A stretch of 64,000 bases of DNA from a bacterium (lineage in GTDB: Bacteria; Bacillota; Clostridia; Lachnospirales; Lachnospiraceae), in assembly GCA_023664305.1 (NCBI GenBank), contig JAMPFT010000005.1, positions 106,364-170,363 on the forward strand, given 5' to 3'. How positions within the stretch are numbered: the stretch's first letter is position 1; every line of letters starts with the position of its first letter. The position numbers and the translations under genes are program-made. Shown piece after piece: positions 13,241 through 53,877 of the stretch. A model generated the notes under the pieces. That model ran no database searches and was not told the origin of the DNA. It worked only from the letters and a program-made list of their open reading frames with translations.

Positions 13241-13296
13241 AAGAGTAGGCATAAACAGGCGTTTTGTTGTTTTTCGGTGTGGACGGATACGAATTT

Positions 13297-16464: not shown

Positions 16465-18006
16465 ATGAAAAAGCAGATGGCAGTTGTGGCGGCGCTTACA
16501 CTGGGACTTACGGGATGCGCGCAGTATACGGATACAGACCGCGTTCAGGAAGACGGGTCGGGCGAGAGGATGAAAATCTCCGTCGCTTTTTGGAACGCGG
16601 AGGAGGCGTTGGCGGGAGACGGGGTGCTGGATGCCATTGAGGAAAAATTTCAGGTAGAACTGGAGCCCTTCAATATGACCTGGAACGATTATTATCAGAA
16701 GGTGGATCGCTGGGCGTCAACCGACAGCTTACCGGACTTGTTTGTCGGGGATTTCAGAAATTCCAAGGCGTACTACCAATGGATCCAGCAGGGGCTGTTA
16801 TGCGCTGTCCCGAAGGATTTGTCGGATTATCCGAACCTGGAAAGCTATCTTGACGGTATGGAGGAGACACAGAGCCTGCTTGTGGACGGAATGCTGTACT
16901 GCATCCCGAGGCAGACTTATCCTGCGCAGGAATGGACGAGCATTGACCGGGTGTTGGTTTACCGCTGGGATCTGGCGCAGAGGGCGGGAATCCGGAAAGA
17001 GCCGGAGAACTGGGAAGAATTTCAGAAGATGATACTGGCGATCGTGGAGACGGATCCGGAGGGGAAAGGGATTCAGGGGATGACGGCGGGAAGCGCGGGG
17101 ATGCTTACCGGGTGGCTCCTTCCTTACGCGTCTTCCATTGCAGCCAGCAACGACAGCGGCTTTTACTGGAAAAAGGACGAGGACGGTATCTGTAAGCCCG
17201 CCTACTTTGTGGATGATATGACCGCCGCTTTTCAACTGGCGAGGGATATGTATGAGGCGGGAGTGATCGAGAGAGATATCATTCAGGAGACGGAAAACGG
17301 CGCAAGAGAGAAATTTCTGCAGGGGGAATATGCGGCAATCCTTTACTCAGGAGGCTTTGGCACTGTATACAACAATGTAGGGAAATATTGGGAGGAGGTT
17401 CATGGCAGAGGGTTCACGGAGGATGTGAGGGCTCTGGGGCTGATGCCGGATGTGAACGGCAACAAGGCTTATCCGATCTGGGGATACGCGTGGAGCGAGT
17501 CCTACATCAGCTCTAAGGTGGAGGAGGATAAGCTGGATAAAATACTGCAGATTTACGATTATCTGTTAAGCGAGGAAGGGGCTTTTTTCGCAGCCTACGG
17601 TCCGGAGGGAGAGTTTTATGAGATCGAGGACGGCAGGGCGCGGCTGTGCGATTCGGAAGCGGATGTGACGGCGCGGTATCCCTCCTGCGCCATGCTTTCC
17701 ACGCTGGTTCGCTGGGATATCAGCCTTTATGACGACAGATTTCCTTCTACGATTCCGGAAGACTGTGTTCAGGTAAATTATGAGCTGTTTCAGGAGGCGA
17801 GGGAAGCGCCGATTCCGGAATATGAGCCGGAGTGCAGGCGCATTATGAGGGAGGAGCAGATTGAGTTCTCGCTTGATCTGAATAATGATTTTCTGAGTAT
17901 TATGACGGGAACGAGGCCGGTAGAAGAGATGTGGGAGGAAATTAAAAGAGGATATGAAGAGAAGGGCCTGCAGGAGATGATCGATACCGTGAACAGCAGG
18001 CTATAG
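16465..18006 (+). CDS. Extracellular solute-binding lipoprotein (CUT1 type)
   Basis: A 513-residue lipoprotein; the lipobox LTGC places the lipid on Cys18. The fold is a family 1 sugar-binding protein: early SVAFWNAEEA strand, PDLFVGDF segment, IPRQTYPAQEW region and a late WGYAWSESY loop. It sits 12 bp behind the YesN regulator, so its likely job is to present ligand to the kinase or to a permease pair elsewhere in the locus; no permease follows directly. A strong terminator lies 30 bp downstream, which makes yesM-yesN-SBP a self-contained three-gene unit. Confidence 0.9.
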   Translation: MKKQMAVVAALTLGLTGCAQYTDTDRVQEDGSGERMKISVAFWNAEEALAGDGVLDAIEEKFQVELEPFNMTWNDYYQKVDRWASTDSLPDLFVGDFRNSKAYYQWIQQGLLCAVPKDLSDYPNLESYLDGMEETQSLLVDGMLYCIPRQTYPAQEWTSIDRVLVYRWDLAQRAGIRKEPENWEEFQKMILAIVETDPEGKGIQGMTAGSAGMLTGWLLPYASSIAASNDSGFYWKKDEDGICKPAYFVDDMTAAFQLARDMYEAGVIERDIIQETENGAREKFLQGEYAAILYSGGFGTVYNNVGKYWEEVHGRGFTEDVRALGLMPDVNGNKAYPIWGYAWSESYISSKVEEDKLDKILQIYDYLLSEEGAFFAAYGPEGEFYEIEDGRARLCDSEADVTARYPSCAMLSTLVRWDISLYDDRFPSTIPEDCVQVNYELFQEAREAPIPEYEPECRRIMREEQIEFSLDLNNDFLSIMTGTRPVEEMWEEIKRGYEEKGLQEMIDTVNSRL

Positions 18007-18036
18007 GGTATTTTGCAGAGATGTATTTTGTACAAA

Positions 18037-18065
18037 GGGCAATCCGCGGCGGATTGCCCTTTTTT
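18037..18065 (+). terminator. Rho-independent terminator after yesMN-SBP
   Basis: GGGCAATCC pairs perfectly with GGATTGCCC around GCGGC and is followed by six T. Confidence 0.88.
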
Positions 18066-18112: not shown

Positions 18113-18169
18113 TTGACAAAAAACAGAAAGATTTGCTTCATAGGCTTTGTGAAAGCTTTTCTTTATAAT
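18113..18169 (+). promoter_or_regulatory. Candidate promoter elements of the glycan-uptake operon
   Basis: A perfect TTGACA at 18113-18118 is followed after 18 bp by TTCATA; a separate perfect TATAAT is at 18164-18169 without a good -35. Either could start the long operon from 18275. Confidence 0.4.
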
Positions 18170-18274
18170 AAAAGACAAAAGGAATTGGGCAGACTGTACA
18201 AGGGAAACGGTATTTTGCCGGAGACGCTTTGTGAAAGTCGTAAAGCGGGAGATGGCAGGCGAGTGGGGGAAGAG

Positions 18275-20266
18275 ATGAAAATCGGAACATTCCGCAGGAT
18301 GTTTACATTATTTTTGACAGGAAGCTTACTTGTTTTCGCAGCCGCCTGCGGCAGCGGAGAAGAGCTGTCTGAGGAGAGAGGACAGGAAAGCCGGCCGGAT
18401 GCTTTCGGCGGACAGAACAATGCGGAGGCAGCCGCAGACTGGACGACGGAGCAGCTGCTGGAAGCGGATTTCATCCTTTACAACGTGGACTGTGCCTCGG
18501 AAGAACCCGCCGTCTTTGCGGAGGGGCAGATATGCGGTCTGTACCAGTCGGTCAGCGACCAGCCCGGCGGGACGGATCCGGGAACCGGAAAAAACTGGGG
18601 ATATCGGCAGGCGGATTACATGATAGGGGAGCGGGACACTCTGGGCGAGGGTATCACAGCCAACAAGTGGAATATTTCGGAAGAGCTTTACCCGGGAGGA
18701 GAAGAAGGCGCATTCTGTTATGACTTTCAGCTTCCCAAAGGAGACTACCGGGTGACGGTAGGCTTTTACGACCCCTTCGGCCCCCGAAAGATCGATGTGG
18801 ACTGCGAGGGAGAGCGGATGGTGGAAGCGGAAAAGATTCTCCGTTTCCGGCTTACGGAAAAGCAGTTTGATATCACGGTAGAGGACGGGGAACTGAACCT
18901 GAAGGTATTTAATGCGGAGGGGAAAAGAGCTATGGATATCCCGATCCTGAGTTATATCCGGATCGCGGCTGTCCCCCGATATGACAGGGAGCTTCTTGCG
19001 CTGGCATTACAGAAGTATGCGGCGGAGGGAGGAGAGGATGTCTATACGGCGGATTCCTATGAAAGGTACAGCCGGGCTGTGGCGGAGGCGGAAGAGCTGT
19101 TGGGAGAGGAGAATCCGGAGAAGGAAGACTGCGAAAGGATATTTCGGCAATTAAAGGAGGGCAGCGAAATGCTGGCGGAGAAATACAGGTATGACTCCTT
19201 CCGGCCGGGAGAGCAGTGGAGGGATACGGAAAACAATCTGATCCAGGCTCACGGCGGGCAGGTACAGCGGTTGACCTACCGTGAGGAAGACACAGGAGAG
19301 CCGGTTACGAAATGGGTCTGGGTAGGGGAAGACAAGACCGCGGGCAATAAGGGCGGCATCCGGGCTTACAGCTCGGAGGATCTGTATAACTGGCAGTTCG
19401 AAGGCATTATCCTTCGCAATGTCCCGTCCCGGGAAGCGCTGGAGACGGAGGAATATTTTAAAGAGGTATACGGGGATTACACGGCGGAACAGTTGGATAA
19501 CGTATTCCGCAGCCTGGATGCGAACAGCGCTATTATCGAGCGCCCCAAGCTGATTTATAACGAGAAAACGGAAACGTATGTGCTTTGGTTTCACGCGGAC
19601 GGGCCTACGGAAACCAGCGACAGCAGCTATGCGGCGGCCTGCGCCGGGGTTGCCGTCAGCGATTCCCCCTTCGGCCCCTACCGTTTTATCGATCGGTATC
19701 GGCTGAATGTCTGTCCTGAAGACCAGGAGGATATGTATCCCTCCAGCAAGGGTATGGCCAGAGATATGAACCTTTTTGTGGACGAGGATAAGACGGCGTA
19801 TATTATTTACTCCAGCGAGGAGAATCTGACGCTCTATATTTCAAAGCTGAACGAGGAATACACTTACCTGGCCGTGCCGCCGGAGGAAGCCGTGTACGGG
19901 AAAGATTTTATCCGGCTGTATCCGGGAGCGCAGCGGGAGGCCCCGGCGGTATTCAGGCGGGATGGGAAATATTATCTTCTGTCCTCCGGCTGTACCGGTT
20001 GGGCGCCGAATCAGGCAAGGTATTATGTGAGCGATTCTATACTGGGAGAATGGGAGAACATGGGCGACCCCTGTATCGGAGATACGGAACGGACTACTTT
20101 TCAAAGCCAGAGTACCTGTGTGTTTGAAGGGCCTTCGGGAGAACTGATTTACATGGGAGACCGGTGGAACAGCGAAAAACTGTCGGATTCCCGTTATGTC
20201 TGGCTGCCGGTGGAATTTTCTGAGGACGGAAGTATGGAGCTGCGCTGGCAGGATGAGTGGAGATAG
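18275..20266 (+). CDS. GH43-like lipoprotein with N-terminal carbohydrate-binding domain
   Basis: A 663-residue lipoprotein (ATG 18275 after GGGGGAAGAG; lipobox FAAAC, Cys25). Order: malectin/CBM-like beta-sandwich at about 65-245 (segments ILYNVDCAS, GDYRVTVGFYDPFG), a helical FIVAR-like linker at about 250-305, then a five-bladed propeller with GH43-type motifs (AYSSEDLYNW, ERPKLIYNEKTETYVLWFH, YVSDSILGEWENMGDP, PSSKGMARDMNLFVDED). GH43/GH32-type propellers cleave plant arabinans, xylans or galactans. The usual N-terminal catalytic Asp is not obvious in the expected blade, so activity must be tested. First gene of the uptake locus. Confidence 0.8.
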   Translation: MKIGTFRRMFTLFLTGSLLVFAAACGSGEELSEERGQESRPDAFGGQNNAEAAADWTTEQLLEADFILYNVDCASEEPAVFAEGQICGLYQSVSDQPGGTDPGTGKNWGYRQADYMIGERDTLGEGITANKWNISEELYPGGEEGAFCYDFQLPKGDYRVTVGFYDPFGPRKIDVDCEGERMVEAEKILRFRLTEKQFDITVEDGELNLKVFNAEGKRAMDIPILSYIRIAAVPRYDRELLALALQKYAAEGGEDVYTADSYERYSRAVAEAEELLGEENPEKEDCERIFRQLKEGSEMLAEKYRYDSFRPGEQWRDTENNLIQAHGGQVQRLTYREEDTGEPVTKWVWVGEDKTAGNKGGIRAYSSEDLYNWQFEGIILRNVPSREALETEEYFKEVYGDYTAEQLDNVFRSLDANSAIIERPKLIYNEKTETYVLWFHADGPTETSDSSYAAACAGVAVSDSPFGPYRFIDRYRLNVCPEDQEDMYPSSKGMARDMNLFVDEDKTAYIIYSSEENLTLYISKLNEEYTYLAVPPEEAVYGKDFIRLYPGAQREAPAVFRRDGKYYLLSSGCTGWAPNQARYYVSDSILGEWENMGDPCIGDTERTTFQSQSTCVFEGPSGELIYMGDRWNSEKLSDSRYVWLPVEFSEDGSMELRWQDEWR

Positions 20267-20350
20267 AAATCGTTTTTGACAGGTCGATTCGCCTTTGAAA
20301 AGGCAGAGAAAAAACTCATAATTTCATTCTGAGAGGAGAGGGAAGCGGGT

Positions 20351-23236
20351 ATGAGGAAGAAAAGAATCGGGTTGGTTCTCCCGGCATTCGCGGCGGTGCT
20401 GGCGCTGGGAAGCGCGTCGGTCTGCGGAATATCTGTAAATGCCGGGGAAGAGGATCTGAGCCAATATTATGTGGAAGTATATGACACGGTCAAGTACGAG
20501 GATTATCTGGCGGAGCATGGAGAAGTGGTCTGTCCCGATGTGGAGATCGCGGTGGCCGGCGGAGACTATGCGGCGGCGTCGGGAGATGTAAAAAAGGCTG
20601 CGTCCTACGAAGGAAAGAGCAATGTGGCGCTGACCCCCGCCGAGGGCAGTATTACCTGGGAGGTGGAGGCGCCGGAGGCCGGCTTTTATCAGGTCTGGAT
20701 GGAATATTTTCCCATGGAGGGCAAGAACAATACCATCGAGAGAGAAGTCCGCATCAATGGGGAAATTCCCTTTGACGGGGCGCTGTATCTGGAATTTTCC
20801 AGAAACTGGGCGGATGGGGCGGAGATTACCCGGGACGCCAGAGGCAACGATATCCGTCCCATGCAGGTGGAAGTCCCCCGCTGGATGGGCGGATGGTGGA
20901 AGGACAGCAGCGGATATGAGGCGGAAGCATACCGTTTTTATCTGGAAAAGGGAACAAATACCGTCACGCTGGAATCTGTGAAGGAGCCGATGGCCATTGC
21001 GTCCCTGACGCTGAAACAGCAGGCGGCGGTTCCCTCTTATGCCGAATACCTGGAGCAGGCGAGGTCGGCGGGCGCATCGGAAGCGGTACTGGGGGAGGCC
21101 GTTAAGATACAGGGGGAGGATGCCTCCTGGAAATCGGACTCCACTCTGTATCCGGTAAACGACAGGACTTCTCCCAAAAACGAGCCTTATGACGCGGCGA
21201 AAATCCGGATGAATTCCATCGGCGGCAATAACTGGAATCAGATCGGCCAGTGGATTACCTGGGAGATCGAGGTTCCGGCGGATGGGCTTTATGAGATCGC
21301 CGTGAAATATAAGCAGAGCATCAAGCAGGGCGTGACGGTTGTGAGATCCCTGGAGATCGACGGGGAGGTCCCTTTCCGGGAAGCCCGGGAGCTGCGTTTC
21401 TTCTACGAAAACGACTGGCAGATCGCGAGGCTGGGGTCGGAGGATGCGCCTTATCTGTTCTATCTGAAGGCAGGAACCCACACTCTCACCATGGAGGCCG
21501 CGTTGGGCAGCGAGCTGTCGGATATTCTGAATGATGCGGACGATTGTATCTTTGAGCTGAACAAGGCATACAGGCAGCTGCTGATGGTGATCGGTTCTTC
21601 GCCGGATATGCTGCGGGATTATCAGCTGGAAAAGAAAACGCCGGAGGCGTTGCAGATTCTGGCGCAGCAGTACGAAGCCGTGTCCGACCTGGCGGAGCGG
21701 GTGGAAAGATATGCCAACGGTTCCAAGGGAAGCCAGTCCGCATCCCTCGACAATCTGATCGTGCAGCTGGAGACCATGAGCAAAAAGCCGGAGACTGTGG
21801 CAAAATACTGGTCTTCCTTTAAGGACAATATTATTTCCCTGGGTTCCTGGGCGCTGGGTATGAAGGAGCAGCCCCTGCAGATCGACTATCTGTTGGTTCA
21901 GCAGCCGGGCAGCAGTCTGCCGGTGGCAAAAGCGAATTTCTTTGAAAAAGCGGCGCATGAGCTGAAAGCCTTTTTTGCCAGCTTTACGGAAGACTACGAG
22001 AGTATCGGAGACGTATACGAGGGAGACAGCCTGACGATCTGGCTGCTGGCGGACGCGGCTACCGTGTCCAGCGCCTCCGGAAGCGGCAGGGATCAGGCGA
22101 CGGTGCTGAAGAATCTGATCGATAACTATTTTGTGCAGGAAACCGGGATTTCCGCCAATGTCAAGCTGGTAAACAGAGACAATCTGCTGTCCGCTACCCT
22201 GGCAGGGGAAGGGCCGGATGTGGCGCTGGGGGTTGCCAGCAAAGAGCCTGTGAATTACGCGCTGCGGAATGCGGCGGCCGATCTGACGCAGTTTGAGGAT
22301 TTTGACCGGGTGACGGGACGGTTCATGGACGGCGCGCTGGATATGTTCCGATACGACGGAGGCGTATATGCCCTGCCCCAGACGACTACCTTCCAGATGC
22401 TGTTTTACCGGGCGGACATTTTACAGGAGCTGGGTCTGGAGATTCCCACTACCTGGGATGACTTTTACGAGTGTCTGGCGGTGATCCAGAAAAACAATAT
22501 GAATGTGGGCACTGTGCCGGATTATACATCCTACGGTATGTTCCTTTACCAGTACGGAGGGGCCTATTACCGGGAAGACGGCACGGCGAGCGGGCTGGAT
22601 TCGGAGCCGGCGGTACAGGCCTTTGCCCAGTGGTCCGGCAATTATGCCGATTATAAGATGCCTGTAACCTATGACTTTGCAAACCGTTTCCGTACCGGGG
22701 AGATGCCTCTGGCTATCGCGGACTATACGTCCTACAGTTATCTTTCCATCTTTGCGCCGGAGATCAAGGGACTTTGGGGTTTTACCCTGGTGCCGGGTCA
22801 CGCGGATGAAAACGGCGAAGTAAATCATTCCGTCATAGCGGGGCAGACGGCCTCCATTATCCTGGATACCTCGCAGCATAAGGAAGAGGCATGGGAGTTC
22901 CTGAAATGGTGGACCAGCGAAGAAATTCAGACCAATTACTGTATTGAGGTGGAGAACATTCTGGGCGTGGCGGGCCGTGTGGCTACCGCCAACATGGACG
23001 CGCTGGAGAACCTGCCCTGGTCGAATAAGGATATGCGGCAGCTTCAGGCCCAGCTGGATTGGGTGCGGGTAGTGCCGGAGATTCCCGGCGGGTATTTCAC
23101 GGAGCGTCATGTAAAGAACGCTTTTTACGCCGTGTACAACAATAAGGAAGACCCCAGGGAGACGCTGGAGGATTACGTTAAGACCATCAACAACGAGATA
23201 ACCAACAAACGGATCGAATTTGGTCTGGATGAGTAG
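20351..23236 (+). CDS. Large secreted protein: two carbohydrate-binding-like domains fused to a solute-binding domain
   Basis: A 961-residue protein with a signal peptide ending near SVNA (about residue 31); there is no clear lipobox. Two repeated beta-sandwich modules lie at about 55-225 and 260-385; each has an ITWEVE strand and a late strand with F/YYLxxGTxTxTxE. A helical region spans about 395-555. A family 1 solute-binding domain occupies about 565-961, with PDVALGVASKEP, YALPQTTTFQMLFYR and EEAWEFLKWWTSEEIQ. Standard sugar-binding proteins are 400-550 residues, so this is about twice as long. It is followed by its permeases (14 bp gap). Confidence 0.85.
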   Translation: MRKKRIGLVLPAFAAVLALGSASVCGISVNAGEEDLSQYYVEVYDTVKYEDYLAEHGEVVCPDVEIAVAGGDYAAASGDVKKAASYEGKSNVALTPAEGSITWEVEAPEAGFYQVWMEYFPMEGKNNTIEREVRINGEIPFDGALYLEFSRNWADGAEITRDARGNDIRPMQVEVPRWMGGWWKDSSGYEAEAYRFYLEKGTNTVTLESVKEPMAIASLTLKQQAAVPSYAEYLEQARSAGASEAVLGEAVKIQGEDASWKSDSTLYPVNDRTSPKNEPYDAAKIRMNSIGGNNWNQIGQWITWEIEVPADGLYEIAVKYKQSIKQGVTVVRSLEIDGEVPFREARELRFFYENDWQIARLGSEDAPYLFYLKAGTHTLTMEAALGSELSDILNDADDCIFELNKAYRQLLMVIGSSPDMLRDYQLEKKTPEALQILAQQYEAVSDLAERVERYANGSKGSQSASLDNLIVQLETMSKKPETVAKYWSSFKDNIISLGSWALGMKEQPLQIDYLLVQQPGSSLPVAKANFFEKAAHELKAFFASFTEDYESIGDVYEGDSLTIWLLADAATVSSASGSGRDQATVLKNLIDNYFVQETGISANVKLVNRDNLLSATLAGEGPDVALGVASKEPVNYALRNAAADLTQFEDFDRVTGRFMDGALDMFRYDGGVYALPQTTTFQMLFYRADILQELGLEIPTTWDDFYECLAVIQKNNMNVGTVPDYTSYGMFLYQYGGAYYREDGTASGLDSEPAVQAFAQWSGNYADYKMPVTYDFANRFRTGEMPLAIADYTSYSYLSIFAPEIKGLWGFTLVPGHADENGEVNHSVIAGQTASIILDTSQHKEEAWEFLKWWTSEEIQTNYCIEVENILGVAGRVATANMDALENLPWSNKDMRQLQAQLDWVRVVPEIPGGYFTERHVKNAFYAVYNNKEDPRETLEDYVKTINNEITNKRIEFGLDE

Positions 23237-23249
23237 AGGGGGCTGGGAC

Positions 23250-24194
23250 ATGAAACAGAAATTACCGGGTATGCTTATGGCTGACATAAAGCGTCGCCTT
23301 ATATTGACAGGAAAGCAGATGAAACGGGAGAAGATTTCCTACCTGTTCGTGGCTCCCTTCTGTATCCTTTTTATTCTGTTTTACCTGGTGCCGGTGGCTA
23401 CATCGATCGGCTTAAGCTTTACCTATTATAACGTTTTGGAAACGCCCCGGTTTGTGGGCTGGCAGAATTATATCAATCTGTTTTTTGCGGACGATGTGTT
23501 TCCCACGGCGGTGAAGAATACGTTTCTCTTTGCGGTGGTCACGGGCCCCATCGGGTATTTCGCGGCGCTTCTCATCGCCTGGATGATCAACGAGATCAAG
23601 AACCGTTTTCTGAGAGCCTTTATGACGCTGGTATTCTATGCGCCTACGATTTCCGGTCAGGCTTACTTTATCTGGAAATATATTTTTTCCAGCGACAGCT
23701 ACGGCATGGCGAACGGCTGGCTGATGAAGCTGGGAATTACTTACAGCCCGATCCTCTGGTTTGAGGACGCCAAGTACATACAGCCCATCCTGATCATAGT
23801 GGTCTTGTGGATGAGCATGGGAACGGGTTTCCTGTCCTTTATCGCAGGCTTGCAGAACGTAGACAGAAGCTTGTATGAAGCAGGTTATATGGACGGGATC
23901 AAAAACCGGTTTCAGGAGCTTTGGTATATTACGCTGCCGTCCATGAAGCCGCAGCTGATGTTCGGCGCGGTCATGACGATCACCAATTCCTTTGCCATCC
24001 ATGACCAGCTGGCGGCGCTGGCGGGTTTCCCCAGCGTGGATTACGCGGCGCATACGGTGGTATCCCATCTGGTAGATTACGGCACAATCCGGTTTGAAAT
24101 GGGATACGCTTCCGCTATCGCCACGCTGCTGTTTTTGGTGATGATCCTGTGTAATAAGCTGGTTCAGCGTCTTCTCAGAAAGGTAGGGAACTGA
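23250..24194 (+). CDS. Sugar ABC transporter permease, CUT1 MalF-type
   Basis: A 314-residue inner-membrane permease with six membrane segments and the EAA loop EAGYMDGIKNRFQELWYITLP that docks the ATPase. ATG 23250 follows GAGGGGGCTGGG; the in-frame codons before it overlap the previous gene. It forms a heterodimer with the next gene product and takes substrate from the protein encoded at 20351-23236. Confidence 0.92.
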   Translation: MKQKLPGMLMADIKRRLILTGKQMKREKISYLFVAPFCILFILFYLVPVATSIGLSFTYYNVLETPRFVGWQNYINLFFADDVFPTAVKNTFLFAVVTGPIGYFAALLIAWMINEIKNRFLRAFMTLVFYAPTISGQAYFIWKYIFSSDSYGMANGWLMKLGITYSPILWFEDAKYIQPILIIVVLWMSMGTGFLSFIAGLQNVDRSLYEAGYMDGIKNRFQELWYITLPSMKPQLMFGAVMTITNSFAIHDQLAALAGFPSVDYAAHTVVSHLVDYGTIRFEMGYASAIATLLFLVMILCNKLVQRLLRKVGN

Positions 24195-24195
24195 C

Positions 24196-25059
24196 ATGGC
24201 AAAAAAGAAAGTAAAAGGCGTTAAGCCCAGCCATTCCAGAGCGGGTAATTTTTTCAATATGTTTTTGCTTATCGTCATGGGACTGTTTATGGTGGTGCCT
24301 CTGGTGCTTTCCATCAGCAACTCCTTAAAGCCCCTGGAAGAGCTGTTTGTGTTTCCGCCCAGACTGCTTGTGAGAAATCCCACCGGAAAAAACTTCCACG
24401 ATGTGTTTGTGATGATGTCGGAGTCCTGGGTGCCTTTTTCCAGATACATATTTAACACGGTGTTGATTACCCTTTTGGGTACGGTGGGGCATCTGATCAT
24501 TGCCAGCCTCTGTGCTTATGCTCTGGCAAAGCGCAAGTTTCCCGGAAGAAACCTGATCTTCGGAACAGTGGTGACGGCGCTGATGTTTTCCGGTCAGGTG
24601 ACGGCGATTCCCAACTATCTGATTATGAGTAAAATCGGATGGCTGGACACTTATCTGGCGCTGATTGTTCCGGCGATTGCGAAGCCCATGGGACTGTTTT
24701 TAATGAAGCAGTTTATGGAGCAGCTTCCGGACAGCCTGCTGGAGGCGGCCAGAATCGACGGCTCCGGCGAATTCAATACCTTTCTCCGGATCGCGATGCC
24801 GCAGGTAAAGCCTGCCTGGCTGACCCTGATTATCTTTTCTTTCCAGGATCTGTGGAACCTGCAGGGCGGTAATTTTATCTACAGCGAGAACCTGAAAACG
24901 CTGCCCTACGCGTTGTCTCAGATTGCGGCGGGCGGCATCTCCAGAGCGGGCGCTACGGCTGCGGTAACGGTTATCATGATGGCGGTGCCAATTGCTATTT
25001 TTGTTATCAGCCAGAGCAGCATTGTCGAGACGATGGCGTCCTCTGGTATCAAGGAATAA
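24196..25059 (+). CDS. Carbohydrate ABC transporter permease, CUT1 MalG-type
   Basis: A 287-residue permease with six membrane segments and the EAA loop EAARIDGSGEFNTFLRIAMP, plus the family C-terminal MASSGIKE-like tail. It starts one base after the stop of the MalF-type gene, indicating tight co-translation. No ATPase gene is in this locus; in Firmicutes such pairs are commonly energised by a shared MsmX-type ATPase. Confidence 0.92.
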   Translation: MAKKKVKGVKPSHSRAGNFFNMFLLIVMGLFMVVPLVLSISNSLKPLEELFVFPPRLLVRNPTGKNFHDVFVMMSESWVPFSRYIFNTVLITLLGTVGHLIIASLCAYALAKRKFPGRNLIFGTVVTALMFSGQVTAIPNYLIMSKIGWLDTYLALIVPAIAKPMGLFLMKQFMEQLPDSLLEAARIDGSGEFNTFLRIAMPQVKPAWLTLIIFSFQDLWNLQGGNFIYSENLKTLPYALSQIAAGGISRAGATAAVTVIMMAVPIAIFVISQSSIVETMASSGIKE

Positions 25060-25073
25060 GCGGGGGGATGAGG

Positions 25074-26603
25074 ATGAGAGAGAAACGGTTGACAAAGAAG
25101 ACAGCGCTCCCCAAAAGCCGGTCGTGGAAGGGCGGACGCAGGGTCAAGGCGGCCAAAACTGCCCTGGGGCTGGCGGCAGCGGTCGGAATGCTGCTCTTTT
25201 CCGGGCGGGAGGCTCAGGCCTCGGTCATGCCCTATGACACTTACAGCTATGACTGGTGGGGGGAGGATGTGCTTCAGCCCCATGCATACCTGTATCAGGA
25301 ATCCTACGCCGGGAACCGGTTCGGGACGGAATTGAAGACGCCTCAGGATCTGTTTTTCCGGGACGGCCTTCTGTACATAGCGGACACAGGGAACAACCGG
25401 ATATTGATTCTGACGGAGCAGGGCGAATATGCAGACGAGATCGCTGGAGGCCTGTCAGGTCCCCAGGGCGTATTCGTCACAGAGGAAGGCCATGTCTATG
25501 TGGCGGATTCGGGAAACGGAAGAATCGTTGAGTATGATGAAAGGAAAGCCGTCGTCAGAGAGATCGGGAGACCGCAGACGGAGCTGATCGACGCTTCCCA
25601 GAACTATGTGCCTACCAGGGTTGTGGTGGATCAGGCGGGAAGGATGTATGTAATTGCCTACGGTATCAACATGGGGCTGGTGGAGTTCAACGAATTCGGG
25701 GAATTTCAGGGTTTCATGGGAGCCACTCCGGTAACGGTATCTCCTTTTGAGTATATGTGGAAGACTTATTTTTCCACGGACGCCCAGAAGCAGAGGATGG
25801 AAACGATTATTCCCACGGAATACAGCAATATCTATGTGGATAAAACAAGCTTTGTTTACGCCACGATCAGCAATCTGTCGGAGGAAGACCATCTGAACGG
25901 AGCGGATGCGGTAAGACGTCTGAATCCCACCGGTACGGATGTGCTCCGGCGTCTGGGAAATTATGATATCATCGGCGACCTGTATTCCGCCTCCGACGAG
26001 GCGTCCTGGTCTTCCTTTACGGATATTGCCGCCACGGATTACGGCTGCTATTTTGTTTTAGACAATGCGGGAGGCAAGGTATTCTGTTACGACTATGACG
26101 GGAACTCCCTGTTTATCTTCGGAGGAACCGGGAGCAGGAGCGGAATGCTGCGCAATCCCACTTCGCTGGCGCTGAACGACGATCAGTCCCGGATTTATAT
26201 TCTGGACGCGCAGTTGGGAAGTATTCTTCGCTTCGATATCACGGAGTACGGCACGAGCCTGCTGGGGGCCATGAAAGCCCATTATACGGGGAATACGGAG
26301 GAGTCCGACCGGCTCTGGAAAGAGGTGCTGCGGGAGAACGCCAACAGCGAGGTCGCTTATATCGGTATGGGGAAGATTGCCATGCGGGAAGGCGACTATA
26401 AACAGGCGATGGATTATTTCAAGCTGGGCAACAGCAGGAAATATTATACCCGGGCGTTCGAATTTTACCGGAAGGAATTAATGCAGACGAGCTTTGCCAG
26501 GTATATGGGAGTCGCGATTGTCCTGATTGTAATCGGTCTGCTGGCGGTAGTCGGCGGAAAAATAAAAAGATGGGTAGGTGAGGTAAAGTGCAGAAATATC
26601 TGA
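25074..26603 (+). CDS. Secreted NHL-repeat protein with TPR and C-terminal membrane anchor
   Basis: About 509 residues. An N-terminal signal/anchor helix (about 25-48, ending GREAQA) is followed by six NHL/SMP-30-like blades (about 75-385), with typical FRDGLLYIADTGNNRI and GHVYVADSGNGRI blades. A short TPR-like pair follows (about 400-460; AYIGMGKIAMREGDYKQAMDYF), then a membrane helix at about 478-498 and a basic tail. It would expose a propeller outside the cell, anchored at both ends. The start at 25074 has GGGGGG at correct spacing; ATG 25068 abuts it. Overlaps the next gene by 16 bp. Confidence 0.82.
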   Translation: MREKRLTKKTALPKSRSWKGGRRVKAAKTALGLAAAVGMLLFSGREAQASVMPYDTYSYDWWGEDVLQPHAYLYQESYAGNRFGTELKTPQDLFFRDGLLYIADTGNNRILILTEQGEYADEIAGGLSGPQGVFVTEEGHVYVADSGNGRIVEYDERKAVVREIGRPQTELIDASQNYVPTRVVVDQAGRMYVIAYGINMGLVEFNEFGEFQGFMGATPVTVSPFEYMWKTYFSTDAQKQRMETIIPTEYSNIYVDKTSFVYATISNLSEEDHLNGADAVRRLNPTGTDVLRRLGNYDIIGDLYSASDEASWSSFTDIAATDYGCYFVLDNAGGKVFCYDYDGNSLFIFGGTGSRSGMLRNPTSLALNDDQSRIYILDAQLGSILRFDITEYGTSLLGAMKAHYTGNTEESDRLWKEVLRENANSEVAYIGMGKIAMREGDYKQAMDYFKLGNSRKYYTRAFEFYRKELMQTSFARYMGVAIVLIVIGLLAVVGGKIKRWVGEVKCRNI

Positions 26604-27211
26604 AGTCCATGGCTTACGGTTTCCATGTGATCACACATCCCTTCGACGGATTTTGGGATTTAAAGCGGGAGCATAGGGGTACTCTTGCGGCGGCAGTGAC
26701 CTTTGCCGCGCTGACGGTGCTCTTGCTGGTAGTCCGGAAACAGGGGACAGCCTTCCTGTTTAACACGAATCGGCTGGAAGATGTGGATATGATGGTGGAT
26801 ATTGTCACAGTGGCGCTGCTTTTTGTCCTTTGGTGTGTGGCAAACTGGTGCCTGACCTCGCTGATGGACGGCGAGGGAAAGATGCGGGATATTGCGATTT
26901 TTACCGGCTATTCCCTGCTTCCCATGCTGCTGATCCAGTTTCCGCTGGTTCTGGTGAGCCATGTGATTACGGCGGAGGAAGGAACCTTTTACTATGTGTT
27001 TACGGTCATCAGCTACGTCTGGACGGCGGCCCTGCTGCTGCTCGGCATGATGATCACCCATCAGTACAGCATGAAAAAGACCTTGCTGACCACAGTGCTC
27101 ACGCTGGTGGGGATGGCGATCATTCTGTTTATCGCGTTGCTGTTCTTCAGTGTGATACAGCAGTTCCTGACCTTTATCGTGACGGCTTATAAGGAAATCA
27201 GATACCGGTGA
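26588..27211 (+). CDS. Yip1-family integral membrane protein
   Basis: A 207-residue protein with five predicted membrane segments (about 32-50, 68-88, 110-135, 142-165, 175-200). The segment HPFDGFWDLKRE near the N-terminus and the later GYSLLP motif are typical of bacterial Yip1 (YIP1/DUF1282-like) proteins. It starts with GTG at 26588, inside the end of the NHL gene, after GGTGAGG, so the two are coupled. Function unknown; the tight overlap suggests a complex with the NHL protein. Confidence 0.8.
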   Translation: MQKYLKSMAYGFHVITHPFDGFWDLKREHRGTLAAAVTFAALTVLLLVVRKQGTAFLFNTNRLEDVDMMVDIVTVALLFVLWCVANWCLTSLMDGEGKMRDIAIFTGYSLLPMLLIQFPLVLVSHVITAEEGTFYYVFTVISYVWTAALLLLGMMITHQYSMKKTLLTTVLTLVGMAIILFIALLFFSVIQQFLTFIVTAYKEIRYR

Positions 27212-27232
27212 CGGAAGGGGGAAGAAGAGGAT

Positions 27233-29785
27233 ATGAGGAATAAGCTTTTCAAAAGAGCGGCGGGCATTCTGACGGGAATCGCTTTGCTTTGTACGCTGGC
27301 GCCTGCTCCGTCTGTCCGGGCGGCAGAACGGGAAATACCGGATCGCATGGAGCTGGTCGCGTCCAACGACAGCCTGGAGCTTTATCTGGATCGGGAGCTG
27401 GCGGATCTGGCGGTAAGGGTAAAGGCGACCGGGGACGTATGGTTTACCAATCCTCAGGAAGCCGATGAGGATCCCCTGGCCAGTAATTATTATAAGAACT
27501 TAATGAAATCCCAGTTCTCGATACGGTATTTTAACGCGAATGTCCAAGCCTCTGAAATGGACAGCTATACCGACGCGGTAGCGGAAGGACAGTTTGACGT
27601 GGAAGAAATCCGGGATGGCGTCAAAATCAGTTACCAAATGGGAGACGTGGCGGATAAATTTGTCCTTCCCCAGATTATCAGCGAGGAGCGTTACGCGTAT
27701 TACACAGGGCTGATGGACGAGAAGGACGCCAAAAACGTAGGGAGAAACTATCTGTATCTGAACCGGGAGGAGCTGACGGAGGATAAGCGTAAGGATTATC
27801 TGGAGAGATACCCGGTTTTGGAAGAATATCCGATTTACGTCCTGAAGGAAAGCGTAAAGGACTATAAGAAAGAGGAGTTGACGGAGTACTTTCAGGGGGC
27901 GGGCTACACGGTTCAGGAAATGGAGCAGGATAATCTGGCAAACGGCTATGAATCGACCAGCCGGAAGCCCTGGTTCAATATAGCGGTTTCCTATTATCTG
28001 GAAGGGGACGCCTTTGTGGCGGAGATCGATCCGGAGACCGTGGAATACGATACGGAGAAATATTATCTTGTGGATATTGATCTGCTGGAGTATTTCGGAG
28101 CGGGCTCCGCGGAGGAAGAGGGTTATCTCTTCGTCCCGGACGGCAGCGGGGCGCTGATTTATTTTGACAACGGTAAGCTCAGTGCCCCTGCTTATATTGG
28201 TTATGTCTACGGCGAGGACAAGACGAGCCAGGTTAACCTGACAAAGAAGCCTGAAATTGACCAGAGCGTGACGGTGCGTATGCCGGTATTCGGACTGAAA
28301 AAGGGGGACAGTGCCTTCTTCGCGATTGTGGAGGGCGGCGCGGCAGGTGCGGATATCAATGCGGCGTCCTCCGGCAAAACGGACAGCTATAATCAGGTGT
28401 ATGCGGGATTCAGCTATCTGACCTACGGCGCGATCTCCCTGGGGGATATGGTAGGCTCCAACAGCTTCCAGATGTATTCCCAGCCGGTGTTTCAGGAGAG
28501 CTTCAAGGTGCGCTACAGCTTCTTGAGCGGGGAAGAGGCAAATTACGCGGGGATGGCGTCTTATTATCAGGGATACCTGCAGGAACAGGGAGTCCTGGGC
28601 GAGCGGACGGAAGGCAGCGGGACGCCGCTCTACCTGAATTTTATCGGAGCCATCCGTAAATCGGAATCCGTCTTGGGAATCAAATGCAAGGTAACCCAGG
28701 AGCTGACCACTTATGAACAGGCGGCAGAAGCGGTAAGGGAGCTTGCCGCCGAAGGCGTGGAAAATATTAAGGTGGAATACAGCGGCTGGAGCAGCGGCGG
28801 GCTGCACGGAAAAGCGCCCGGCGGAACGAAGTCCTTAAGCTGTCTGAACGGCGGCGGGACGGATCTGGAGGATTTCCTCCGGGAGATGGAGAGCGCGGGG
28901 ATTCCGGTCTTCCATACGGCGCAGCTCCAGTATGTATACAGCGACGGAGCCTTCGACGGATACCGCCCGGAGAGCTATGCTCCCAGGTATTATGACAATA
29001 CCGTGGCGCGGGCGAACTCATACCTGATTCCGAACGGCATGAAAACGAATCAGGACAGGATCGAGATGATCAGTCCCTATTATGTAGGGGATATGGTGGA
29101 CAGCTTCCTGAAGAAAACGAAGAAATACGGGCTTACGGGTATTTCGGTAGAGGATCTGGCCAGCAACCTGTTCAGTGATTTTAACAACAGGCATTATGTG
29201 AACCGGCAGGAGGCGGCGGAGTATAACGGCGCCGCCATGGAGAAGCTTGCGGCAGGCTGCGGCGGAAATCTGCTTGGGAGCAATGCCAATGTATATGCCT
29301 GGAAGTATTTGTCGGATATCAAGAATGTGCCGCTCGACAGCAACCGTACCCAGCTGATCGACGACGCGGTTCCGTTTTACGAAATGGTGCTGCACGGTTA
29401 CCGGGACTATACCGGGGAACCGGTAAATCTTTCCGGCGACGTCAATACGATGCTTCTGAAAAGCGTAGAAGCCGGGGCGGGTCTTTCCTTTGAATGGATC
29501 TGCGGGGACAATTCTCTGCTGAAAAACACGGAATTTGACGGCTTGTATTCCGTCGGCTTTCAGGATTGGAAGGATACGGCGGTTCTTTCCTGGAGCAGGG
29601 TGAATGAAGCGATGGGAGACCTGAGAAGCCTGCGGATTATCGGGCATGAAAGACCTCAGACCGGCGTTACCTGCACGGTGTACGAGGACGGCACCCGAGT
29701 AATCGTGAATTACAACAAGTATGAGGTGACGTATCAGGGGAATACCGTGAAGGCGCAGGATTTTCTGGTGGTAAAGGAGGGGTGA
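27233..29785 (+). CDS. DUF5696 domain-containing secreted protein
   Basis: An 850-residue exported protein (signal peptide to about residue 31, cut after VRA). The first 450 residues are beta-rich; from about 470 the sequence looks like a TIM-barrel-type glycoside hydrolase half: TPLYLNFIGAIRKSESVLGI, a KVEYSGWSSGG strand, and a later GLTGISVEDLASNLFSD strand with acidic residues at its end. It corresponds to DUF5696 proteins, which commonly stand next to CUT1 permeases. Enzyme activity is plausible but unproven; candidate acids lie in the VEYSGW and VEDLAS strands. Stops one base before the next permease gene. Confidence 0.82.
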   Translation: MRNKLFKRAAGILTGIALLCTLAPAPSVRAAEREIPDRMELVASNDSLELYLDRELADLAVRVKATGDVWFTNPQEADEDPLASNYYKNLMKSQFSIRYFNANVQASEMDSYTDAVAEGQFDVEEIRDGVKISYQMGDVADKFVLPQIISEERYAYYTGLMDEKDAKNVGRNYLYLNREELTEDKRKDYLERYPVLEEYPIYVLKESVKDYKKEELTEYFQGAGYTVQEMEQDNLANGYESTSRKPWFNIAVSYYLEGDAFVAEIDPETVEYDTEKYYLVDIDLLEYFGAGSAEEEGYLFVPDGSGALIYFDNGKLSAPAYIGYVYGEDKTSQVNLTKKPEIDQSVTVRMPVFGLKKGDSAFFAIVEGGAAGADINAASSGKTDSYNQVYAGFSYLTYGAISLGDMVGSNSFQMYSQPVFQESFKVRYSFLSGEEANYAGMASYYQGYLQEQGVLGERTEGSGTPLYLNFIGAIRKSESVLGIKCKVTQELTTYEQAAEAVRELAAEGVENIKVEYSGWSSGGLHGKAPGGTKSLSCLNGGGTDLEDFLREMESAGIPVFHTAQLQYVYSDGAFDGYRPESYAPRYYDNTVARANSYLIPNGMKTNQDRIEMISPYYVGDMVDSFLKKTKKYGLTGISVEDLASNLFSDFNNRHYVNRQEAAEYNGAAMEKLAAGCGGNLLGSNANVYAWKYLSDIKNVPLDSNRTQLIDDAVPFYEMVLHGYRDYTGEPVNLSGDVNTMLLKSVEAGAGLSFEWICGDNSLLKNTEFDGLYSVGFQDWKDTAVLSWSRVNEAMGDLRSLRIIGHERPQTGVTCTVYEDGTRVIVNYNKYEVTYQGNTVKAQDFLVVKEG

Positions 29786-29786
29786 T

Positions 29787-30719
29787 ATGGGACTGTTTCA
29801 TAAGGTGAACGGGAAGAGGAGGCTGACGCTTCAGGGAAAAGAGGCTGTGGCGGGATATCTGTTCGCAATCCCTTTTCTGATCGGTTTTTTTGGGCTGTTT
29901 CTTCCCATGGTACTGAAATCAGTGCAGTTCAGCTTCAGCAATATGACGGTGGGGACGAGCGGTTATGTGCTGTCAAGGGCGGCGAATAACGGACTGGAGC
30001 ACTATATCAGGGCTCTCACTATAGATCCGGACTTTAACCGGAAGCTTCTGGAAGCGGTAAAGGATATGGCGGTAAATGTCCCGCTGATTATCATCTTCAG
30101 CTTTTTCGCGGCCAACCTGCTGAATCAGAAGTTCCGGGGAAGGGGAATTGCCCGAAGCGTCTTTTTCCTTCCGGTGATTCTGACCTCCGGAATCGTGCTG
30201 GGAATCGAGTCCTCGGATCTGCTGCAGACGACTCTGGGGCCTGAGGGGATGCTCTCGGCGGACGACGCGAATACCGTGTTCAATGTTGCGGGGTTCCTGC
30301 TGAATTATACGAATCTCCCTTCCGGGATCGTTATGTATCTGTCGCAGGCCGTGCTGGGGATTTATGACATTGTGATTTCCTCAGGCGTCCAGATATTGAT
30401 CTTTCTGGCGGGGCTGCAGGGAATCTCGCCCAGCCTGTATGAAGCTTCCAATATGGAAGGCGCTACGGCCTGGGAAAATTTCTGGAAAATTACTTTTCCC
30501 ATGATCAGTCCGCTGATTCTGGTAAATTCGATTTATACCATCATCGACTCCTTTACCAGCGCCAACAATGAGCTGATGGAGGTCATCAAGAAGACCATAT
30601 TCAGTGAAGTAAAATACGGCTACGGTTCCGCTATGTCCTGGATCTACTTCCTGGTCATCGGAGTGATTATCTGTATTGTGGGCGGCATTATCGGTAAACG
30701 GGTATTTTATATGGATTAG
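29787..30719 (+). CDS. Sugar ABC transporter permease, CUT1 MalF-type (second pair)
   Basis: A 310-residue permease with six membrane segments and the EAA loop EASNMEGATAWENFWKITFP. It is preceded by AAGGAGGGGTGAT inside the end of the DUF5696 gene. It is divergent from the permease at 23250, so this is a second transport system rather than a duplicate. Confidence 0.92.
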   Translation: MGLFHKVNGKRRLTLQGKEAVAGYLFAIPFLIGFFGLFLPMVLKSVQFSFSNMTVGTSGYVLSRAANNGLEHYIRALTIDPDFNRKLLEAVKDMAVNVPLIIIFSFFAANLLNQKFRGRGIARSVFFLPVILTSGIVLGIESSDLLQTTLGPEGMLSADDANTVFNVAGFLLNYTNLPSGIVMYLSQAVLGIYDIVISSGVQILIFLAGLQGISPSLYEASNMEGATAWENFWKITFPMISPLILVNSIYTIIDSFTSANNELMEVIKKTIFSEVKYGYGSAMSWIYFLVIGVIICIVGGIIGKRVFYMD

Positions 30720-30729
30720 GGGGGCTAAA

Positions 30730-31794
30730 ATGCAGATGAAAGCGCTTTCTGTAGGAAGAGGGGGTTCCGCAGGGAAGGAAAATCCCATGGGAAAGAGGAA
30801 TCCCGTAGGAAGAGGGAACTTCATGGAAAAACACGGAATAAAAAGGAATCGCAGAAAAATGACGACGGCCCGGCTGGGACGGCTCGCCGTGGCAATCGTC
30901 CGGGGCGTCATCATATTCGGTATCTGCTTTGTTATTTTGTATCCGATTTATTTAAAGCTGAGCGTTTCCCTGATGGCCGAAAAGGATCTGTATGACGCCA
31001 CGGTGAAATACATTCCCCGGAATTTTACGCTGGATAATTATAAAAAAGTTCTGGAAGGCCTGGATTACTGGAAGAGCTTCCTGAACACGACGATTCTGTC
31101 GGCGGGGGTTTCCCTGCTTCAGATGATTGCCTGTATGCTGACGGCGTACAGCTTTGCCAGATTCCGTTTCCCGGGGAAAAAGCTGTTGTTCGGGTGCGTG
31201 ATCCTTTCTCTGATCGTGCCGCCTCAGATCGTGATGCTGCCCATGTTTATGAAGTTTCGGTTTTTTGATATCTTTCATATTTTCGAGGCGGTCACGGGCA
31301 GCTCGCTGAACCTGATCGATACGCCCTGGCCTATGCTGATCCAGGCGGTTACCTGTACCGGGTTCAAGAACGGATTATATATTTATATGCTGAGGCAGTT
31401 CTTTAAGGGAATGCCCAAGGAGCTGGAGGAGGCGGCGTTTGTGGACGGCTGCGGGAAGCTCCGCACCTTTGTTCAGATTATGGTGCCCAGCGCGGTTCCC
31501 ATGATGGTAACGGTATTTCTCTTCGGCTTCGTATGGCAGTGGACGGATTCCTTCTACACGAATATGTATCTGCCCAAGGCGGCACTTTTTGCCAACAACC
31601 TTAATTCTCTGGCGGCGGTGCTGAACAAGCAGTATTCGGATATGGGCGGAAGCATGAATTTTGTCAGTCCCGCGTTTGCGTCCCAGATGAACAATACCGG
31701 AAGTCTGCTGGTCATCCTGCCTCTGATTTTGCTCTATCTGGTCTGCCAGAAGTATTTTGTGGAGGGAATCGAGCGTTCCGGTATCGTAGGGTAA
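30730..31794 (+). CDS. Carbohydrate ABC transporter permease, CUT1 MalG-type (second pair)
   Basis: A 354-residue permease; EAA loop EAAFVDGCGKLRTFVQIMVP. The N-terminal 50 residues are an unusual basic, Gly/Arg-rich extension with GKxNPxG-type repeats before the first membrane segment (about 58-80). Since such extensions are rare in MalG-type proteins, the true start could be an internal ATG (30783 or 30823), but the GGGGGG ribosome site favours 30730. Confidence 0.88.
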   Translation: MQMKALSVGRGGSAGKENPMGKRNPVGRGNFMEKHGIKRNRRKMTTARLGRLAVAIVRGVIIFGICFVILYPIYLKLSVSLMAEKDLYDATVKYIPRNFTLDNYKKVLEGLDYWKSFLNTTILSAGVSLLQMIACMLTAYSFARFRFPGKKLLFGCVILSLIVPPQIVMLPMFMKFRFFDIFHIFEAVTGSSLNLIDTPWPMLIQAVTCTGFKNGLYIYMLRQFFKGMPKELEEAAFVDGCGKLRTFVQIMVPSAVPMMVTVFLFGFVWQWTDSFYTNMYLPKAALFANNLNSLAAVLNKQYSDMGGSMNFVSPAFASQMNNTGSLLVILPLILLYLVCQKYFVEGIERSGIVG

Positions 31795-31874
31795 ACGGTA
31801 GCTTTATCACGGTGGTAGGGCCTGTTTCGGCTTTATCATATACATTAACACTTTCAGGAAAGGAAGGAGAATTT

Positions 31875-33377
31875 ATGAAAAAGAAGGTATTGGCACTTCT
31901 GCTGGCGACGGCAATGACGCTGGCAGCGACAGGATGCGGCGATTCGCCGGAACCGGGTTCCACGCCGGAATCTCAGGAGAGCGGCGATTCCTCCGCGCCG
32001 ACGGAGGAAAGCCCGGAGGCGTCTTCCCCGGAAACGCCCGCGGAGCCGGAGTATGATTTCGGAGGCAGAACGTTCCGGATCGGATCTTATCATGATATGA
32101 GCCCGGATCCGGAGGGCAGTGATCTGGATCAGGCTTATGCGGAGCGCATTGAGTATGTGGAGCAGAATTATAACTGCAACATTGAGTTTGTGGTTGTGGG
32201 AGGAGGAAACGACGAGATCATCAATAATTATGTGACCTCCGTGCTTTCCGGCGATCCCTGCTGCGACGCCGGATATATCCTCAGCTACCGTTTGCTGCCG
32301 GCTCTGATCGAGGGCGGTATTGCTCAGCCCATCAGTGACCTGGGCGTGGTGGATTTCTCGGCGCCCTGGTACGATCCCGCAGGCATCGAGGCGGCAACCT
32401 ACAAGGGAAAACAGTACGGCCTGGCAAAGAGAGGCGCAGGCGTACAATACGGCATTTTCTGGAACAAGACACTGTTTGACCGTTATAACCTGCCTGATCT
32501 GTATGAGCTGTACGAGAAAGGCGAGTGGACCTGGGACAAGTTCAGGGAGATTGCGCTTGCGGGAAATCAGGACACGGACGGCGACGGAGAGTACGATATC
32601 TGGGGCTTTAACCAGAGAGAAAATCTGATCTGGAGCTTTATGTCTTCCAACGGAGCGGACGCGGTAAAGAAGACGGCCGACGGCGTGGAGCTGGCGCTGG
32701 ATACTCCGGAAGCAAAGGAAGCGCTGGAGTTTTATGCGGACTTTATGCAGAACGTGCCTCATATGAAGGGCTGGCAGGGCGACTGGCAGAGCCAGATCTG
32801 GAGCTTCCGGGACGGAACCTCCTGCATGTGCTACGAGGCGTGGTGGATTGCAAACAGCTACCTGAACGCGGATCCGGCGAACGACCGGGAGGGTATGCAG
32901 GATGATTGGGGCTTTGTTCCTTTCCCGATGGGACCCAGCGGAACCGAGTATGTTTCTTACGGAAAAGAGTCGGATCCCTGGTTTATCCTGAACGGCGTCG
33001 AAAAGCCGGAAGAGGTTGCGCAGGTGATCGACCTGATCTTCCAGTATGAGGAGACCGAGGAAGACTGGGATGAGGCGATTATGGCTCAGTTCGAGAAGAA
33101 CGCGGAGGACTCTACCGCGGTGGAGATCTGTCTTGGCCTGAGTACGAAGAATAAGATTTCTCCTCTGATGGGCTTTACGAATCTGAATAATATGCTCAAC
33201 AGCATGATGGATAGTCTGGGCAACGGCGAGACGACCCCGGACACTGCCTTGGAGGCGAACCGTGCGGCCCTGGAAGCGGCGATCGAGGACATCAAGACCC
33301 ACGATTACGGCGCGGATATGCAGCAGCAGATGGAAGACTTCCTGAATCCGGAGGAAGAGGAACAGCCCGCAGAATAA
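31875..33377 (+). CDS. Extracellular solute-binding lipoprotein (second transporter)
   Basis: A 500-residue lipoprotein (ATG 31875 after GGAAGGAGAATTT; lipobox AATGC, Cys21) with a Ser/Glu/Pro-rich linker to about residue 60. The mature part is a family 1 solute-binding fold, with GRTFRIGSY, a DAGYILSYRLLP strand, GVQYGIFWNKTLFDRYNLPD and a late DPWFILNGVEKPEEV. It belongs with the permeases at 29787 and 30730. A strong terminator 15 bp downstream ends the long operon. Confidence 0.9.
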   Translation: MKKKVLALLLATAMTLAATGCGDSPEPGSTPESQESGDSSAPTEESPEASSPETPAEPEYDFGGRTFRIGSYHDMSPDPEGSDLDQAYAERIEYVEQNYNCNIEFVVVGGGNDEIINNYVTSVLSGDPCCDAGYILSYRLLPALIEGGIAQPISDLGVVDFSAPWYDPAGIEAATYKGKQYGLAKRGAGVQYGIFWNKTLFDRYNLPDLYELYEKGEWTWDKFREIALAGNQDTDGDGEYDIWGFNQRENLIWSFMSSNGADAVKKTADGVELALDTPEAKEALEFYADFMQNVPHMKGWQGDWQSQIWSFRDGTSCMCYEAWWIANSYLNADPANDREGMQDDWGFVPFPMGPSGTEYVSYGKESDPWFILNGVEKPEEVAQVIDLIFQYEETEEDWDEAIMAQFEKNAEDSTAVEICLGLSTKNKISPLMGFTNLNNMLNSMMDSLGNGETTPDTALEANRAALEAAIEDIKTHDYGADMQQQMEDFLNPEEEEQPAE

Positions 33378-33392: not shown

Positions 33393-33425
33393 GCAGGCAG
33401 CGAAGGTGACTTCGCTGCCTGCTTT
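33393..33425 (+). terminator. Strong terminator closing the glycan-uptake operon
   Basis: GCAGGCAGCGAAG pairs perfectly with CTTCGCTGCCTGC around a GTGA tetraloop and is followed by TTTGCT. The U-tract is short but the stem is 13 bp. Confidence 0.75.
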
Positions 33426-34456: not shown

Positions 34457-34469
34457 CAGAGGTGATATT

Positions 34470-49472: not shown

Positions 49473-49503
49473 ATACTTGTAAAATTGTCGGGAGGTGCCA
49501 ATT

Positions 49504-51357: not shown

Positions 51358-51453
51358 GGACAACTTGTTCCCTACCCCATCCTCCCCGCCCTTTTGTGCT
51401 TTATAGTACTGTTTCTGAATTGTATGCCCCTTAGTCCCTCTGCATGAAATCAA

Positions 51454-53875: not shown

Positions 53876-53877
53876 GT

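Follow-up and report, generated by a model that had tools for sequence, protein, structure and literature searches.

A conserved NHL-Yip1-DUF5696 gene cassette among sugar importer genes of Bacillota and its possible role in glycan import

Why genes for an NHL/TPR protein, a Yip1-family membrane protein and a DUF5696 protein should be packed between those of two sugar transporters is the question raised by a locus in a 64,000-nucleotide stretch of Lachnospiraceae DNA (GenBank assembly GCA_023664305.1, contig JAMPFT010000005.1, positions 106,364 to 170,363; hereafter the window). The NHL/TPR gene (25068..26603) overlaps the Yip1 gene (26588..27211) by 16 bp, the DUF5696 gene (27233..29785) follows after a 21 bp gap, and the next gene, for permease A2 (29787..30719), begins after 1 bp, all on the plus strand. 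The overlap and the one-base gap agree with a preliminary description made from the sequence alone, which proposed a surface machine that captures and processes a polymer before import. Upstream lie genes for a solute-binding protein (SBP1) and permeases A1 and B1, and downstream those for permease B2 and a second binding protein, SBP2. On balance, the locus probably represents a conserved glycan-import machine of Bacillota with DUF5696 as a mostly non-classical glycan-binding or gating subunit.

Conservation and joint divergence of the cassette

The NHL, Yip1 and DUF5696 genes were found together in 84 of 84 loci, comprising 82 collected by DUF5696, which all of these contain (80 fetched loci, L004 and the window), and two named plasmids. 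As DUF5696 served to pick the loci, whose members in turn supplied the NHL and Yip1 models, this count indicates that DUF5696 is accompanied by the pair, not the reverse. NHL and Yip1 were encoded by a single open reading frame (ORF) in 41 loci and by two ORFs in 43, and same-strand adjacency was seen in 83/84, L117 failing solely through its stop-to-stop frame. A permease-family gene occupied the first position after DUF5696 in 76/82 loci and the second position also in 76/82. The three genes are thus conserved together, and their coupling is kept far beyond the source genome, as co-occurrence, adjacency and the joint divergence reported below indicate. A chance neighbourhood peculiar to one genome is ruled out by co-occurrence and joint divergence in many loci.

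Among 120 genomes of the family, including the source genome, a Yip1 match lay directly upstream of 41 of the 46 DUF5696 matches counted above about 150 bits (26 genomes). The other five were two that do carry NHL and Yip1 according to the locus-built models (L060 and L077), one fragmentary match where a contig ends (G016:C189) and two short forms (G030:C8 and G051:C156). In the reverse direction, 41 of 56 Yip1 matches adjoined DUF5696 and the rest were located elsewhere; DUF5696 was likewise absent beside G008:C23 and G102:C1, ORFs as long as the fused form in which Yip1 was weakly matched. Besides the window, the family matches left out of the locus set were two G016 fragments, G030:C8, G051:C156 and G051:C125, while 40 of the 55 DUF5696 rows found outside the source genome in the phylum search were fetched as loci. 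Across 398 phylum genomes, DUF5696 was present in 37 (E 1e-20) and Yip1 in 173 (E 1e-4). No DUF5696 was found in 14 control genomes at E 1e-20, and the two weak matches there at E 1e-3 were not above the cut-off. Among 148 genomes from the phylum of an Alistipes-labelled metagenome-assembled genome, DUF5696 (E 1e-15) occurred only in that genome, as a short form, and no relatives were confirmed in viral contigs.

Plasmid pNP243 of Butyrivibrio fibrisolvens D1 carries genes for a glycoside hydrolase of family 43 (GH43), an SBP, two permeases, NHL, YIP1, DUF5696, two permeases and two SBPs, and all ten window proteins were matched on this cassette, with identities from 84% (A1) down to 41% (DUF5696). 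A two-component system lies beside it (L119), and the histidine kinase, AraC-type regulator and SBP located upstream in the window share 29%, 36% and 42% identity with their counterparts there. In Paenibacillus cellulosilyticus, genes for a UgpC-type ATPase, a large SBP, two permeases, a fused YIP1 protein, DUF5696 and two permeases are followed by flavin oxidoreductases and SBPs. The latter region of the plasmid (L120, 17787-27010) encodes four LLM-class flavin oxidoreductases and two SBPs, which suggests that the substrate chemistry of this locus is other than plant polysaccharide; sulfonated sugars would perhaps be a guess. In one set of flank ORFs (A4), Omp85 and POTRA models matched one ORF each, possibly the same one, so at least one cassette-bearing genome of the phylum Bacillota seems to have an outer membrane.

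The genes also recur within genomes. In five genomes of 2.2-3.0 Mb, DUF5696 was matched 8, 10, 10, 11 and 20 times, with several fragments among these matches, and Yip1 8, 10, 10, 10 and 17 times; the 3.58 Mb source genome has three DUF5696 genes, with NHL-Yip1 neighbours also at the other two. Pairwise distances among DUF5696, NHL, A1, B1, A2, B2 and SBP1 correlated at 0.75-0.91 over all loci. When within-genome paralogue pairs were used to remove species history (n=42, from 17 genomes, the pairs being non-independent), Spearman coefficients were 0.92 for DUF5696-A2, 0.90 for DUF5696-B2, 0.89 for DUF5696-NHL, 0.89 for A2-B2 and 0.92 for A1-B1-SBP1, with 0.68-0.86 between the two blocks. DUF5696 therefore tracks the downstream permease A2 as closely as the permease halves A2 and B2 track each other. 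As correlations were higher within the blocks than between them, NHL-Yip1-DUF5696-A2-B2 looks like the core and SBP1-A1-B1 a frequent companion.

The DUF5696 protein and its membrane partners

The window DUF5696 protein matches PF18952 (E 4e-188) with 627 bits against a cut-off of 25.6, covering positions 4-612 of the 612-position model. Its fold is that of GH129, and sequence homology to GH129 and GH129-like enzymes (NagBb, 5WZN; DagB, 5OPQ/8RZK) can be detected. A hydrophobic segment at residues 10-28 corresponds to the N-terminal segment found in 76/82 members, ten of those 76 with a lipobox-like motif, and DUF5696 is predicted to be located outside the membrane.

At the GH129 catalytic positions, Asp was present at the nucleophile in 40/82 cassette members and Glu at the acid/base in 21/82, and both in only five, which makes classical GH129 catalysis doubtful for most members. 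The window protein has D641 at the nucleophile position and S683 at the acid/base position, presumably that of E478 in NagBb, and has not kept the Asp and Glu pair. The catalytic D435 of NagBb is described in the available text of PMC5698469. The earlier suggestion that DUF5696 is a secreted hydrolase thus fits the data poorly; the classical active site is lost in most members, and other conserved acids leave room for a different one. Three short DUF5696 relatives retain both catalytic residues. L037 is a true GH129 enzyme (NagBb, E 2e-266) yet matches the DUF5696 model at E 1e-25, so that DUF5696 annotations with low scores can cover both enzymes and cassette proteins. For the cassette proteins, a role as a binding or scaffold subunit of importers, derived from a glycosidase, is favoured over that of a hydrolase, as judged from their sequences.

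The NHL/TPR protein (PF01436, E 1e-13; weak TPR match) has propellers as its PDB relatives. It had been thought to be anchored at both ends; however, a hydropathy scan (threshold 1.6) found a single hydrophobic segment, a C-terminal transmembrane helix at residues 471-489, and by eye the N-terminus looks like a signal peptide. The description of the Yip1 protein as polytopic holds, with five hydrophobic segments and a PF04893 match at E 5e-17. In the fused form, the NHL-TPR part, one transmembrane helix and the five Yip1 helices make up one chain, and the NHL-TPR part is predicted to lie outside the membrane with its last helix running into Yip1.

Proposed working and alternatives

Glycan capture and import appears to be the right frame for the locus, given the gene coupling and the many glycan-degrading enzymes encoded in the flanks. 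Among 188 flank ORFs, picked by length and clustering, the Pfam families were at least GH43, a GH51-type C-terminal domain, GH3, GH130, GH31, GH10, GH67, GH26, GH42, GH29, GH27/36, GH35, apiosidase, GH30, GH8, GH95, GH28, alginate lyase and CBM65, plus others. As these glycosidases vary widely, the core seems generic, with no single glycan explaining the flanks. For the window itself, the closest PDB relatives of the GH43 protein are 6eug and 3vsf, labelled Beta-glucanase and Ricin B lectin, which we take to be galactanases, followed by 7bys and 5flw, which are named exo-beta-1,3-galactanases. At E 1e-10, L004 and the Butyrivibrio cassette were the only ones of the 84 loci flanked by a GH43 protein of this type. 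A guess at the substrate of the window locus would be type II arabinogalactan.

We infer a physical complex built on the NHL/TPR-Yip1 protein, split or fused, DUF5696 and A2-B2, which would often be joined by the second importer SBP1-A1-B1, by more SBPs and by substrate-specific glycosidases. The GH43 exo-enzyme would trim the polymer at the surface, here perhaps type II arabinogalactan at its beta-1,3-galactan backbone, and the large SBP1 would capture oligosaccharides. The NHL propeller and TPR region outside the membrane, with a single helix leading to the five helices of Yip1, may form a scaffold keeping SBP1 and DUF5696, both predicted to hold glycan, near the permeases, and DUF5696, held outside by its N-terminus, could act as the glycan-binding or gating subunit that couples the binding proteins to A2-B2. 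Both permease pairs would import the products, powered by an ATPase encoded elsewhere. No ATPase was found by Pfam among the ten cassette proteins, and two TOBE_2 ATPases encoded elsewhere are candidates.

Several observations weigh against this working. SBP1 was assigned in 62/82 loci and not in the other 20, so the two-importer form is not universal; an A1-like ORF was present within 6 kb upstream in 65/84 loci and a B1-like ORF in 66/84, and part of the missing SBP1, A1 and B1 genes reflects loci cut by contig ends. Genes were called with a longest-ORF script, by which A1 and B1 of the window were lost to opposite-strand ORFs, and the first counts of 58/82 and 60/82 were therefore too low. 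Joint divergence is common inheritance and no proof of contact. Five members, L085 being one that keeps both residues, have the full catalytic pair, D or E stands at exactly both positions in 14/82 and within two columns of both in 19/82, so some DUF5696 proteins may be active, and conservation of the nucleophile column still exceeds that of 73% of 300 barrel columns. In addition, the acids D649, D710 and E746 are kept in 62/82, 69/82 and 77/82 members and could be a relocated active site. The structure model of DUF5696 is of low confidence (pLDDT 58.7, pTM 0.62), and an earlier one (pLDDT 52.5) was uninformative.

These points bear on a rather unlikely alternative, in which DUF5696 belongs to the GH129/GH101 clan as a catalytically competent glycosidase at the surface, its catalytic residues being altered, and trims an end group before import while NHL-Yip1 serves as its membrane anchor. 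The GH129 fold, the three conserved acids and the five full pairs are consistent with activity, as is the finding, in the part of PMC5698469 available, that DagB is active with just one of the two catalytic residues of NagBb. However, the residue common to NagBb and DagB is Asp in just 40/82 members, and a single fixed exo-activity hardly fits flanking enzymes for so many glycans. DUF5696 is also the most diverged of the ten proteins between the window and B. fibrisolvens (41% against 45-84%), an argument limited by the comparison with P. cellulosilyticus, where it is not (30% against 28-47%).

It is improbable that NHL-Yip1-DUF5696 is instead a glycan sensor signalling to the adjacent two-component system from outside the transport path. 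A histidine kinase and AraC-type regulator are encoded upstream in the window and beside the B. fibrisolvens cassette, and a propeller, TPR and multi-pass membrane protein might form a sensor layout, but the core diverges most closely with A2-B2 (0.90-0.92) and sits between permease genes, and the annotation of the 29.7 kb covered of the Paenibacillus region, in an incomplete gene table, lists no two-component system. Still less probable is that the three genes serve the assembly or quality control of the permeases and the large SBP, with no glycan contact by their products. CD98hc, a subunit of eukaryotic transporters, has a role in transporter maturation that would be a precedent. Generic factors need few copies, yet the five small genomes hold 8-20 DUF5696 matches, these copies diverge jointly with their permeases, and barrel residues W519 and R658 are kept in 78/82 and 77/82 members, though possibly for structural reasons. 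Such a role would recall eukaryotic Yip1-family proteins, Golgi membrane proteins of which some are tied to vesicle budding according to the available text of PMC6682643. The glycan-binding or gating subunit remains the preferred reading of DUF5696.

The locus, its surroundings and known systems

The ORF list and Pfam matches place ten genes at 18113-33377 of the window, all on the plus strand and in the order first described. The GH43 lipoprotein gene (18275..20266, or from a TTG at 18113 in the ORF; PF04616, E 1.1e-14; lipobox by eye) is followed by that of SBP1 (20351..23236; 961 amino acids), which had been described as a fusion of a carbohydrate-binding module (CBM) and an SBP. The SBP part stood (SBP_bac_1, E 3.2e-28). 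The CBM label is weak, as the N-terminal matches to Golvesin_C (1.5e-5) and CBM_35 (0.011), which are beta-sandwich or CBM-like, are both below the cut-off, and among 32 members Golvesin_C was matched in 12, CBM_35 in five and GH115_C in five at E 0.01. In an alignment of these members, PDB matches of the profile start at about position 562, with ~560 extra N-terminal residues conserved; searching the N-terminal 616 residues against the PDB gave one match only, at E 0.22. Permeases A1 (23250..24194, ORF start 23220; PF00528, E 1.1e-12) and B1 (24196..25059; E 1.6e-13) have EAA loops by eye. A2 (PF00528, E 1.4e-4) is below the Pfam cut-off yet matches NCBIfam permease models, and B2 (30730..31794, ORF start 30676) matches PF00528 at E 5e-13. 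The last gene encodes the lipoprotein SBP2 (31875..33377, ORF start 31812; PF01547, E 6e-19), the nearest PDB relative of which is the arabino-oligosaccharide-binding protein 6rjy (E 1.9e-10, over part of the protein length).

The unit is preceded by a terminator-like hairpin (18034..18062, plus strand; 13-pair stem, T-run) and followed by another (33393..33422; 13-pair stem) with no strand assigned and a T-tract that is better on the minus strand. As 19 terminator-like sites were observed in the scan against 15.6 expected after shuffling, only these two long stems carry weight. The upstream neighbours, also on the plus strand, encode the histidine kinase (13264-15030), AraC-type response regulator (15070-16452) and SBP (16465-18006). 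Flagellar genes lie downstream, including tandem hook-protein-like ORFs at 34422-36230, FlgK-like by eye only, and 36271-38847, the 858-residue product of which matches FlgK and has by eye a long charged insertion. A further large binding-protein fusion outside the cassette is encoded at 3334-5688 (784 amino acids; SBP-like part at residues 385-692, PF13416, E 9e-8). At 50001-54000 the G+C content falls to 0.42-0.43 and the GC skew changes sign, beside an AAA-ATPase/PDDEXK gene at 49495-51357; this region is possibly acquired DNA.

No open-licence PubMed Central paper was found for DUF5696 by name or for a cassette with NHL, Yip1, ABC importers and fused binding proteins, subscription papers and preprints being outside this scope, and Yip1 and NHL are not mentioned in the available text of a Butyrivibrio transcriptome paper (PMC6344614). 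Much is known of carbohydrate ABC importers and of utilisation loci in Gram-positives; for the cassette itself, no published description was found here. Bacillota are major fibre degraders, and to our knowledge no conserved SusCD-like protein core is known for their glycan uptake. With its presence in Lachnospiraceae and Paenibacillus, and 8-20 DUF5696 matches in five small genomes, the cassette would fill this place and serve as a marker when glycan loci are sought. Joint divergence of a glycosidase-fold protein with permeases, alongside loss of its classical catalytic pair, makes recruitment of an enzyme as a transporter subunit a testable claim, by which DUF5696 and a bacterial Yip1 protein would also gain a putative function.

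The locus resembles the CUT1-type importers of Gram-positive polysaccharide utilisation loci in its SBP with two permeases, their EAA loops, the glycosidase and sensors alongside and the lack of an operon ATPase. ATPases are commonly shared between importers in Gram-positives, so an operon without one does not exclude CUT1 membership. It differs in often having two importers around a conserved NHL-Yip1-DUF5696 set and in the conserved N-terminal extension of SBP1. Most cassette DUF5696 proteins share fold and homology with the GH129 and GH129-like glycosidases but differ in the lost pair and the N-terminal hydrophobic segment; for DagB, its authors proposed a separate family. The Yip1 protein has the PF04893 domain and five segments of the Yip1/YIPF family, and what sets it apart is that, in loci for sugar import, it is fused or coupled to an NHL-TPR part outside the cytoplasm. 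The SusCD-type systems of Bacteroidota likewise reuse one uptake core in many copies alongside different glycosidases, whereas no SusC or SusD homologue was found by Pfam in the ten proteins. CD98hc (4F2hc) has a non-catalytic, GH13-like glycosidase-like ectodomain, and the likeness of DUF5696 to it is one of logic, not homology, as CD98hc is eukaryotic and belongs with another transporter class. Tentatively, Bacillota may possess an equivalent of SusCD of their own: a protein of glycosidase fold, its classical catalysis mostly lost, would serve ABC importers as a glycan-binding or gating subunit on a propeller-TPR-Yip1 scaffold, an independently evolved bacterial parallel to the CD98hc heavy chain of amino-acid transporters, replicated for different glycans.

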